This document shows, one piece after another, positions 5,528 to 37,557 of a stretch of DNA of 64,000 nucleotides. Where the stretch lies: assembly GCF_001469875.2 (NCBI RefSeq), contig NZ_LOPW02000010.1, positions 124,001 through 188,000 on the forward strand. Direction: 5' to 3'. Position numbers and translations under genes: made by a program. The notes beneath the pieces were generated by a model. That model ran no database searches. It was not told the DNA's origin and was given only the letters and a program-made list of their open reading frames with translations. The stretch comes from Haloferax marisrubri. GTDB lineage: Archaea; Halobacteriota; Halobacteria; Halobacteriales; Haloferacaceae. The stretch's first letter is position 1; each line of letters starts with the position of its first letter.

Positions 5528-5579
5528 GTCGGCGAGGCGGACTCTCCTTCGAAGACGGGATTTTGTGCGTCGACCGGGA

Positions 5580-5728
5580 GTGCCGCGAGTGAAACGAGCG
5601 GCACGTTGGCGAGATAGTTTCTCGCCAGAACTGAGCAAACCGACTGTTTGCGAAGGTCGGTCGGTAAACGACCGTAGGGAGTACCGTGAGTGAAACGAAC
5701 GGTACGTCGGTGAGATAGCGTCTCACCG
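5580..5728. repeat. Two copies of a double-hairpin unit with compensating changes
   Basis: Copy A: stem GTGCCG/CGGCAC (5580-5604) followed by TGGCGAGA/TCTCGCCA (5607-5627). Copy B, 101 bases on: GTACCG/CGGTAC (5681-5705) followed by CGGTGAGA/TCTCACCG (5708-5728). Loops are similar (GAGTGAAACGA), and where stem bases differ the partner base differs too. This is what selection for, or a mechanism that preserves, base pairing would leave. Function unknown. Confidence 0.75.
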
Positions 5729-5735
5729 GAAGCGA

Positions 5736-5805
5736 GCCGACCGGGAATTGAACCTCACTCGCAACGCTCCGCGTTGCTCGCTGCTTCAATTCCCTCGGGT
5801 CGCAT
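5736..5805 (-). repeat. Partial copy 1 of the tRNA-Gly 3' end, with inverted half
   Basis: Contains GCCGACCGGGAATTGAACC, identical to the T-arm/acceptor 3' strand of the tRNA-Gly at 6111-6181, in the same orientation. It then continues into an inner stem GCAACGC/GCGTTGC and an inverted TTCAATTCCC, so the whole unit can fold as one long hairpin. Nearly identical to the unit at 5981-6053. Confidence 0.85.
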
Positions 5806-5820
5806 ACACACTCGACAGGG

Positions 5821-5848
5821 ACGAGCAACACGCTTCGCGGTTGCTCGT
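5821..5848. repeat. Perfect hairpin ACGAGCAAC/GTTGCTCGT
   Basis: Nine-base arms separated by a 10-base loop, located between two of the tRNA-Gly end fragments. Part of the palindrome family that fills this intergenic stretch. Confidence 0.6.
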
Positions 5849-5866
5849 CGGTTGTCTCGGTAGAAA

Positions 5867-5955
5867 TGCGCCGACCGGGAATTGAACCTGAGCCAGACGT
5901 TCCTCCTCGCGTTGCTCGTCGGCTGCGACTGGCCGGGTTCAGATTCCCTGCGCAT
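5867..5955 (-). repeat. Partial copy 2 of the tRNA-Gly 3' end, with degenerate inverted half
   Basis: 5867-5888 is an exact copy of the last 22 bases of tRNA-Gly including the discriminator position. Further right, CTGGC...GGGTTCAGATTCCCTGCGCA is a diverged inverted copy of the same sequence, so the unit is a long imperfect hairpin whose loop differs from copies 1 and 3. Confidence 0.8.
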
Positions 5956-5980
5956 TTCGTCTCACTACGTTCGACAGAAA

Positions 5981-6053
5981 TGCGCCGACCGGGAATTGAA
6001 CCTCACTCGCAACGCTCCGCGTTGCTCGCTGCTTCAATTCCCTCGGGTCGCAT
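5981..6053 (-). repeat. Partial copy 3 of the tRNA-Gly 3' end, with inverted half
   Basis: Same unit as at 5736-5805, with the exact 3' 22 bases of tRNA-Gly followed by the GCAACGC/GCGTTGC stem and the inverted TTCAATTCCC. Start-to-start spacing of the successive GCCGACC motifs (5736, 5870, 5984, 6114) is 134, 114 and 130 bases. Confidence 0.85.
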
Positions 6054-6072
6054 CTTTTCACTCCATGGACTC

Positions 6073-6088
6073 GGAGCCTCTCGGCTCC
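6073..6088. terminator. Hairpin downstream of tRNA-Gly
   Basis: GGAGCC-TCTC-GGCTCC, a perfect 6-bp stem with a 4-base loop, 23 bases past the 3' end of tRNA-Gly in the direction of its transcription. No strong T-run follows on the minus strand, so a terminator role is only possible. Confidence 0.3.
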
Positions 6089-6110
6089 TCGTCTGGTTCC
6101 GTTCAGAAGA

Positions 6111-6181
6111 TGCGCCGACCGGGAATTGAACCCGGGCTCCGAGCTTGGGAAGCTCGTGTCCTACCACTGGACCATCGGCGC
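6111..6181 (-). tRNA. tRNA-Gly (anticodon CCC)
   Basis: 71 bases including the discriminator A. Acceptor stem GCGCCGA/TCGGCGC pairs perfectly; D-arm GTCC..GGAC; anticodon stem CGAGC/GCTCG with loop TTCCCAA, giving anticodon CCC (reads GGG); T-arm CGGGT-TCAATTC-CCGGT is standard apart from an end pair. CCA is not encoded. The gene is flanked on its 3' side by three partial copies of its own 3' end and on its 5' side by two partial copies of its own 5' end. A TATA-like AATTTTTG about 145 bases upstream, beyond the 5' copies, is the best promoter candidate I see. Confidence 0.97.
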
Positions 6182-6227
6182 GCTGTGCTCTGCTTGCGCC
6201 CCTGACTCGACCTCGCTCCGCTCGGTC

Positions 6228-6239
6228 GACCATCGGCGC
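6228..6239 (-). repeat. Partial copy of the tRNA-Gly 5' end (12 bases)
   Basis: GACCATCGGCGC, identical to bases 1-12 of tRNA-Gly, 58 bases upstream of the real 5' end and in the same orientation. A hairpin with arms TCGACC/GGTCGA lies between it and the tRNA. Confidence 0.65.
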
Positions 6240-6283
6240 TCACATTCGTTCGCCCCGTGGCTGACTTCACTTCGTTCAGTCAC

Positions 6284-6309
6284 CCATCGGCGCGCTGTGC
6301 TCCGCTTCG
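6284..6309 (-). repeat. Partial copy of the tRNA-Gly 5' end plus its leader
   Basis: Bases 6284-6307 match 6172-6195 with a single difference, covering the first 10 bases of tRNA-Gly and about 14 bases of its upstream leader. It is 112 bases from the original, close to the spacing of the 3'-end copies on the other side. Confidence 0.75.
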
Positions 6310-6431
6310 AACCGCCTTCCGAAGCAAAAATTCGTAGACTGCGGGGGCACTTGAACGTAGCGCTTCACCCCATCACAGGCCCGCGAAAACTGGACGGCCG
6401 TCCATTGTTTTCGCGTGACACGTGACTATTT

Positions 6432-8832: not shown

Positions 8833-8904
8833 GCCTGGGTAGCTTAGCGGTAAAGCGCGTCCTTGGTAAGGACGAGACCCCGGGTTCAAATCCCGGCCTA
8901 GGCT
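8833..8904 (+). tRNA. tRNA-Thr (anticodon GGT)
   Basis: 72 bases with discriminator T. Acceptor GCCTGGG/CCTAGGC (one G-U pair), D-arm GCTT/AAGC with AGCGGTA loop, anticodon stem CGTCC/GGACG with loop TTGGTAA (anticodon GGT, reads ACC and ACU), T-arm CCGGG-TTCAAAT-CCCGG. No encoded CCA and no intron. It lies 88 bases before the end of the pectinesterase gene. Confidence 0.97.
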
Positions 8905-8992
8905 CTTCTCGAAATTCAACTGTCGAGAGAGGCGTCTCGTCGCCGAGCGGTTGCTGGATTCCGGTCGAAACTGACCCGCCCCGCTCGCACGC

Positions 8993-36072: not shown

Positions 36073-37206
36073 ATGCCAGAGCCAGTCATCGCGGCCGCGT
36101 ACCGCACGCCGTTCGGCAAGGCGGGCGGCGTGTTCGAAGACGTTCGAAGCGAGGACCTCTCGGTCACGCTCATCGACCACATCCTCGACGAACACGACGT
36201 CGACCCCGACGACGTGGAGGACCTGATGTGGGGCGTCGCCCAACAGCGCACCGAACAGGACAACAACGTCGCCCGCGTCATCGCCCTCCTGTCGGAGCTC
36301 GGCGAGGGGACGCCCGCGACGAGCATCAACCGCTGGTGCGCCTCCTCGATGCAGGCTATCATCTCCGCGTCCGACGCCATCGCCGCTGGCAACCGCGAGT
36401 GCATCGTCGCCGGCGGGGTCGAGAGCATGTCCCGCGTGCCGATGGACGGCGACTCCTACCAGCATCTCCATCCGGAACTGAGCGAGCAGTACAACATCTT
36501 CCAACTCCAGATGGGGATGACTGCCGAGAAGGTCGCAAACGAGCACGAGGTCTCCCGCGAGGCCCAAGACGAGTTCGCGTTCCGGAGCCACCAGCGCGCC
36601 GCCGAGGCGACCGACTCGGGTCGCTTCGACGACGAAATCGTCCCGGTCGAGACGGACGACGGCGTCGTCACCGAGGACGAGGGCATCCGCCGCGACACCT
36701 CGATGGAGATTCTCGGCGGTCTCGACCCCGCCTTCTCGGGCGACGGCTCCGTCACCGCCGGTAACTCCTCGCAGATAACCGACGGCGCGGCCGCCGTCCT
36801 CGTCACCAGCCGCGAGTTCGCCGACGAACACGGCCTCGACGTACTCGCCTCGGTCGGCACGAACAACGTCGCCGGCGTCGACCCCACGGTCATGGGCATC
36901 GGCCCGGTCCCGGCCACCCGCGGCCTCCTCGACCGCGCCGGCACCGACATCGACGACTACGGCCTCGTCGAAATCAACGAGGCGTTCGCCAGCCAGTGTG
37001 AGTACTCCCGCCGCGAACTCGGCATCGACGCGGACAAACTCAACGTCAACGGCGGCGCAATCGCGCTCGGCCACCCCCTCGGGGCGTCCGGGGCGCGCCT
37101 GCCGGTGACGCTCATCCACGAGATGCAGAAGCGCGACGTGGACCGCGGCCTCGCGTCGCTCTGCGTCGGCTTCGGTCAGGGCGCGGCAATCGAGTTCAGC
37201 AGGTAG
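36073..37206 (+). CDS. Thiolase (acetyl-CoA acetyltransferase family)
   Basis: 377 residues. NRWCASSMQAI with Cys89 nucleophile, NEAFASQ, GGAIALGHPLGASGAR with His334, and CVGFGQG with Cys364 complete the catalytic set. It condenses or cleaves acyl-CoA (acetoacetyl-CoA formation, or the last step of beta-oxidation). A TATA-like CTATTTATGG 27 bases before the ATG suggests a leaderless mRNA. The last ~7 codons and stop are part of a 94-bp tandem duplication that continues downstream. Direction and chain length of the reaction cannot be told. Confidence 0.93.
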   Translation: MPEPVIAAAYRTPFGKAGGVFEDVRSEDLSVTLIDHILDEHDVDPDDVEDLMWGVAQQRTEQDNNVARVIALLSELGEGTPATSINRWCASSMQAIISASDAIAAGNRECIVAGGVESMSRVPMDGDSYQHLHPELSEQYNIFQLQMGMTAEKVANEHEVSREAQDEFAFRSHQRAAEATDSGRFDDEIVPVETDDGVVTEDEGIRRDTSMEILGGLDPAFSGDGSVTAGNSSQITDGAAAVLVTSREFADEHGLDVLASVGTNNVAGVDPTVMGIGPVPATRGLLDRAGTDIDDYGLVEINEAFASQCEYSRRELGIDADKLNVNGGAIALGHPLGASGARLPVTLIHEMQKRDVDRGLASLCVGFGQGAAIEFSR

Positions 37207-37414
37207 GGCGAGAATTCGGCTGTTTTTTTGGTCCAGATTTTTGCCGAGCGAAGCGAGGGAAAAAGGTGGCAGTGGTGTGGCAATCGAGTTCAGCAGGTAG
37301 GGCGAGAATTCGGCTGTTTTTTTGGTCCAGATTTTTGCCGAGCGAAGCGAGGGAAAAAGGTGGCAGTGGTGTGGCAATCGAGTTCAGCAGGTAGAACGAG
37401 AATTCGGCTGTTTT
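37185..37414 (+). repeat. 94-bp tandem duplication spanning the thiolase 3' end
   Basis: Unit 1 at 37185-37278, unit 2 at 37279-37372, both nearly identical; a partial third unit of ~42 bases starts at 37373. Each unit begins GGCAATCGAGTTCAGCAGG, so the codons for AIEFSR and the stop are repeated. Each contains a T7 run (CTGTTTTTTTGG) and GAGCGAAGCGAG, so terminator-like features are tripled. Recent origin is implied by near identity. Confidence 0.93.
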
Positions 37415-37557
37415 TGTTTTAGTTTTCGAAGCGAAGTCGGTGAGACCGGGTGACGACGCGACGGTCGCCTCCCGCTCGTTTCTCCGCCGCTAACGCTCAC
37501 GAACATACGTGCGCCTTTCGTCACGTTCATACTCCGGAAGTCGAGAGTATCCCGGTG
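37207..37557. other. 351-base gap: repeats and terminators after the thiolase gene
   Basis: Apart from the repeat units, nothing coding is seen. T-runs at ~37222, ~37316 and ~37410 on the plus strand look like serial archaeal terminators. The right-hand half (37430-37557) holds the promoter of the small membrane protein. Confidence 0.6.

Follow-up and report, generated by a model that had tools for sequence, protein, structure and literature searches.

Echoes of the tRNA 3' end in candidate structured trailers of haloarchaeal tRNA genes, with tRNA-Gly(CCC) of Haloferax marisrubri as a rich example

Haloferax volcanii contains t-elements, tRNA-like elements within precursor RNA that are processed by tRNase Z and that require a T-arm with an acceptor stem stacked upon it. 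Hairpins also lie upstream of RNA 3' ends in that species, where T-stretches drive termination (PMC7237163), and 11 partial tRNAs have been listed for Haloferax gibbonsii LR2-5, several of them directly adjacent to a full gene (PMC7921747). The DNA considered here is a 64,000-nt stretch of Haloferax marisrubri (assembly GCF_001469875.2, contig NZ_LOPW02000010.1, positions 124,001-188,000), called the window below and used as the frame for feature coordinates. Its tRNA-Gly(CCC) gene is followed by repeated copies of its own 3' end -- here called echoes -- set between hairpins, and is one rich example of the echo-bearing trailers that stand at roughly half of haloarchaeal tRNA genes.

An echo was scored where a tRNA's own last 20 bases recurred, with no more than 5 mismatches, within 400 bp downstream. 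The H. marisrubri genome gave 49 tRNA matches, and 51 tRNA calls with flanks entered the test. Of these 51, 28 echo their own 3' end downstream, 14 of them exactly, and the pattern first noticed at tRNA-Gly(CCC) thus recurs at other tRNA genes. The corresponding counts are 15/32 in a second Haloferax genome and 16/30 in a genome of another haloarchaeal family, against a background, obtained with the ends of other tRNAs in the same flanks, of 35/2348, 13/870 and 46/742 in the three haloarchaeal genomes. Upstream of the 51 tRNAs no copy of the own 3' end was found in either orientation, and the upstream count was 0 in three haloarchaeal genomes; one non-haloarchaeal genome of the same phylum had echoes at 0 of 32 tRNAs.

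The recurring unit consists of an inverted T-arm, a hairpin of 20-60 nt and a direct copy that begins in the T-loop region and covers the rest of the mature tRNA, in that order. The echo has a sharp start at G52-G53-T54 and stops at the mature 3' end or one base past it; its T-arm part is near-invariant, and in other genera the copies match the acceptor sequence of the local tRNA. A signature built from the inverted and direct T-arms, GATTTGAA N20-50 TTCAAATC, is present in 114 of 147 haloarchaeal genomes (reversed control, 0), and 25 of 26 sampled matches lie 33-271 bp past a same-strand tRNA, with the tail of that very tRNA repeated after them. In a phylum-wide sample a slightly wider signature was found in 42 of 43 Halobacteriales genomes versus 20 of 204 others, these 20 having 1-2 matches each and being taken as counted; the reversed control of this form matches five genomes. 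Scanning 84,980 bacterial and archaeal species with the signature gave at least 119 stretches. All of the 80 matches listed are haloarchaeal (one is titled merely "Euryarchaeota archaeon"); among the 84 units that these matches contain, 78 lie downstream of a same-strand tRNA, at a median of 65 bp, and 52 match their own tRNA end perfectly, and three of the six units without an upstream same-strand tRNA are within 30 bases of the locus edge. Among the genomes searched, the unit is limited to haloarchaea, and there to the 3' side and the sense strand of tRNA genes.

The features of the tRNA-Gly(CCC) locus, from leader to last echo, are as follows.

6319-6367, minus strand: upstream block, a probable promoter, non-coding and conserved in 15 Haloferax loci; contains GAATTTTTG at 6325-6333
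6284-6307, minus strand: second leader copy of the tRNA 5' end (10 nt at 6284-6293) with the leader-tRNA junction; 24 nt, 96%
6257-6283, minus strand: leader hairpin GTGACTGAACGAAGTGAAGTCAGCCAC
6230-6239, minus strand: first leader copy of the tRNA 5' end, GCGCCGATGG
6207-6229, minus strand: leader hairpin TCGACCGAGCGGAGCGAGGTCGA, with tandem G.A and a GNA loop
6111-6181, minus strand: tRNA-Gly(CCC) gene (ARAGORN; Rfam RF00005, 70.3 bits)
6046-6110, minus strand: trailer module X, the first spacer, which contains a hairpin, GAGGAGCCGAGAGGCTCC, and shares its final bases with the inverted copy
6033-6056, minus strand: first inverted partial copy of the tRNA 3' end, 79% complementary to 6107-6130 over 24 nt
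6003-6032, minus strand: hairpin A, GCAGCGAGCAACGCGGAGCGTTGCGAGTGA, with a tandem G.A mismatch and a GNA loop
5981-6002, minus strand: first direct echo of the tRNA 3' end (22/22)
5951-5980, minus strand: trailer module Z, TTTCTGTCGAACGTAGTGAGACGAAATGCG
5936-5958, minus strand: second inverted copy, GAAATGCGCAGGGAATCTGAACC
5891-5935, minus strand: hairpin E
5867-5888, minus strand: second echo (22/22)
5798-5866, minus strand: trailer module Y
5785-5803, minus strand: third inverted copy
5755-5784, minus strand: hairpin A, second copy
about 5733-5754, minus strand: third echo (20/22)

The three echoes repeat the last 22 nt of the tRNA, GGTTCAATTCCCGGTCGGCGCA, at spacings of 130, 114 and 134, and the two leader copies repeat its first 10 nt 58 and 112 bases upstream; both sets had been reported in the initial annotation and were recovered in full. 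The further statement there, that each end is copied to its own side only, holds for the direct copies, but it overlooked the three alternating inverted copies (6033-6051, 5936-5958 and 5785-5803) and the hairpins: downstream, direct and inverted copies alternate with a hairpin at each turn. Exact direct repeats of at least 16 nt lying 40-450 bp apart were sought across the 64 kb and are so rare -- this locus and two unrelated cases, one a 94-bp tandem repeat at 37185-37397 and the other a GC-only 16-mer -- that the copies of the tRNA ends are not due to chance. Nor are they an assembly artefact, since most Haloferax genomes share the anatomy, as do other haloarchaea whose genomes are complete or assembled in a single contig. 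A circularly permuted tRNA was also rejected, the complete tRNA-Gly(CCC) being present and the 3' copies lying downstream of it. The tRNA alone scores above an Rfam gathering threshold, and no family resembling the echo unit is present in Rfam.

Several other features of the window may be recorded here. The tandem repeat just mentioned (37185-37420; 94-bp units, about 2.5 copies) contains GCCGAGCGAAGCGAGGG and has no tRNA nearby. The window's second tRNA, tRNA-Thr(GGT) at 8833-8905, has no echo, and a Haloferax relative has one at 77 bp. On the plus strand, at 5576-5743, lies a pair of related 67-nt repeats (79% alike, at a distance of 101 bp) with GA-type hairpins at 5580-5604 and 5681-5705; this is the strand of a convergent small open reading frame ending at 5528, and the repeats are possibly its 3' structures. 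No 5S rRNA match was found in this draft genome, probably owing to an assembly gap.

Several lines of evidence suggest that the units fold. Compared with shuffled sequences they have a median folding z of -4.5, with 98% of units below -2. In two alignments 97.4% and 88.5% of cells are paired and double changes occur at 6 and 11 pairs; in both, neither any of 500 shuffles nor any slid version reaches the covariation score. Tandem sheared G.A mismatches are a part of the hairpins, which are composed of 2-bp steps and often have a GNA loop, and the 5'-GA/5'-GA steps that interrupt the stems are invariant. GA hairpins downstream of tRNAs number 47 in the sense orientation versus 10 antisense, the next-best sense dinucleotide reaching 10, and none occur downstream of tRNAs in a control genome. 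Double-stranded DNA having no reason for such a bias, the strand-specific G.A mismatches point, from the sequences themselves, to structure at the level of RNA. The general intergenic hairpins of the window show no dinucleotide-specific excess and GA is not their top class, so that the motif claim rests on the tRNA flanks. There the association is close: hairpins of type A occur nine times in the 3.9 Mb genome, always in tRNA trailers, and identical 26-nt hairpin cores stand behind different tRNAs of this genome. Many copies are then followed by TTTCT or CTTCT, often with 8-9 nt of acceptor sequence between the stem and the T-tract. Other structures were considered and set aside: the bulges, judged by eye, do not fit a canonical kink-turn or bulge-helix-bulge, and concentric acceptor stems between the echo's acceptor strand and the tRNA 5' strand were rejected, the mismatches keeping 12 pairs and breaking 50.

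The reading preferred here, to which about an even chance is given, is that the unit is a structured pre-tRNA trailer (at tRNA-Gly(CCC) also a leader), selected as RNA, that contains or terminates read-through. The trailer would be transcribed and act as RNA, its most likely job being to catch read-through beyond the weak T-tract of GC-rich tRNA genes. Each echo would be tied up in a hairpin with its inverted partner and would not compete with the fold or the 3' end of the real tRNA, and the closed hairpins, which finish with a second tRNA end and in many cases a pyrimidine tract, would offer more chances for termination or 3' trimming. Arrays may have grown by duplication of a segment comprising the tRNA end plus the trailer, and shrunk by recombination between copies, with selection keeping the hairpin foldable; at tRNA-Gly(CCC) the leader may have expanded in a similar manner.

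Some observations weigh against this reading. The length of the immediate T-run does not distinguish echo-bearing from echo-free tRNAs (p = 0.71, 0.26, 0.38), leaving a simple model of compensation for weak terminators without support. The copies drift in their acceptor part, with the loss of pairing to the tRNA 5' strand noted above. The covariation alignments are small, and their units were picked by length and drawn from different tRNAs and genera; the paired changes could also come from DNA processes that correct palindromes. Because about half of tRNAs have no trailer, and because integration can replace the array (see below), the trailer is not essential.

A related reading, rather unlikely in our estimation, makes the trailer a self-referring RNA switch, in which the inverted T-arm would have two alternative partners, the echo and the T-arm of the tRNA itself, and transcription or processing of the trailer would control the folding and maturation of the tRNA. 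If true, haloarchaea would widely control the levels of single tRNAs in cis.

The chief rival to an RNA trailer is a neutral duplication system, in which replication slippage or template switching at hairpins would generate the tRNA-end copies, gene conversion in the polyploid haloarchaea would homogenise them, and the array would be a functionless by-product; it is a serious possibility, though an improbable one. The variation among relatives counts for it as well as for the trailer reading. Modules are gained and lost among species: at orthologous tRNA-Gly loci of other Haloferax the modules X.A, Z.E and Y.A occur singly or otherwise combined, always bordered by tRNA-end copies, the close trailer copies number 0-3 depending on the species, and across 15 Haloferax loci the leader holds 0-3 units (a 5'-end copy plus a hairpin) between the fixed block of the probable promoter and the tRNA. 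The idea in the initial annotation that short segments around the gene had been duplicated repeatedly is thereby upheld. Such differences in copy number and module order between close species are in keeping with a neutral origin, as are the match of the copies to the tRNA of their own lineage (which indicates concerted change), the erosion of the acceptor part, the genomes of the order without a signature match and the repeat-mediated deletion known in Haloquadratum (PMC3119063). Against it stands the non-complementary GA/GA mismatch of the stems, which is invariant and strand-specific, whereas copying or palindrome correction predicts GA opposite TC; the units, moreover, stay bound to tRNA genes, and identical hairpins are found at different tRNAs.

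The echoes might also be decayed tandem tRNA duplicates, and their spacing of about 60-150 does resemble that of tandem tRNAs. This pseudogene origin is the least probable of the alternatives, however: an inverted T-arm and hairpin uniformly take the place of the 5' part, the copy begins abruptly at the T-loop, its tail is in many cases perfect where decay should be even, and no spacer intermediates with recognisable D- or anticodon arms were seen.

Genuine integration events offer a direct comparison. Two Haloferax genomes carry an element integrated in tRNA-Leu(TAG), with the far repeat (attR) 8-10 kb away and beginning in the anticodon stem-loop region; no inverted T-arm hairpin precedes it. 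The integrases used the real tRNA and not an echo, and the elements bring their own trailer next to the tRNA, a simple hairpin with a T-run after it, which replaces the array; this substitution speaks for the trailer reading. One of the two genomes has the echo array intact immediately beyond attR; the sequence past attR differs in the second, and no exact echo was found there. Integration at a tRNA gene is reported to leave direct copies of the gene's 3' end downstream of it (PMC9897764, PMC7921747), and the echoes could on that account be scars, that is, attR sites remaining after an integrated element was deleted. We consider this very unlikely, the true scars starting in the anticodon stem-loop region and the echoes at the T-loop (G52-T54), and the scars lying kilobases away with no hairpin of the echo type before them, while in one of the two genomes the array survives beyond attR. 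Carriage by viruses or plasmids is not supported: one contig with the unit was found among 2.9 million viral contigs, a blastn search with the tRNA-Gly(CCC) array gave no plasmid match, and the tRNA-Gly(CCC) contig has no integrase match. The initial annotation, which saw no integrase and held that attachment sites would not explain the 5'-end copies, was right on both points: true Haloferax scars extend over everything between the region of the anticodon stem-loop and the 3' end, and in one of the two genomes the echo array was displaced but left intact. That the copies are decoys diverting integrases from the real tRNA is equally improbable. They do hold the 3' half of typical att cores, but they are without the anticodon part of the tRNA-Leu cores, and the tRNA-Leu integrases took the real tRNA although the same locus carries an echo in other species, as does the displaced array of one of the two genomes; the hairpin and its conserved mismatches would be left unexplained.

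The 5' copies are a more local matter. Copying of the 3' and 5' ends had been presented as equal halves of one phenomenon, which does not stand: the 3' echo is general in haloarchaea, and the 5' echo rises above background only at tRNA-Gly(CCC) and a few others. As a general rule the 5' echo was rejected, other tRNAs not exceeding background. The TATA-like element proposed earlier does lie inside the conserved upstream block, and since the leader copies sit between that block and the tRNA, the extra 5' ends predicted for the precursor should be present in the transcript, provided that the block at 6319-6367 is the promoter.

Should the trailer act as proposed, about half of the tRNA genes in an archaeal class would have a structured precursor element, so far unrecognised, in which their own tail is repeated; this bears on how archaeal tRNA transcripts are ended and trimmed. 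The hairpins would supply a motif that recurs in natural RNA, with tandem sheared G.A steps arranged as ladders and with GNA loops. The arrays, being countable, would allow duplication and loss to be studied in polyploid archaea. For annotation there is a caution, echoes being mistakable for tRNA fragments or integration scars.

No earlier description of trailers that echo tRNA ends seems to exist in the literature consulted in part, beyond the remark on LR2-5; older papers may hold one. The LR2-5 partial tRNAs probably include some echoes. In the relevant sections of that report the remnants are discussed mainly alongside integrated elements, and nothing is said of a hairpin or an inverted arm, nor of a class-wide pattern, a strand rule or a function (PMC7921747). 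The H. volcanii terminator hairpins, in the corresponding sections, are not tied to tRNA genes, and neither tRNA-end copies nor a tandem G.A motif is described (PMC7237163). The attL/attR scars share with the echoes a downstream direct copy of the tRNA 3' end, but differ from them in length, start point, distance and flanking structure. The t-elements share a tRNA-derived structure within precursor RNA. An identity with them was rejected, five T-stem pairs being formed in just 8 of 86 copies: the echoes are without the 5' strand of the T-stem, and their T-loop is paired into a stem instead.
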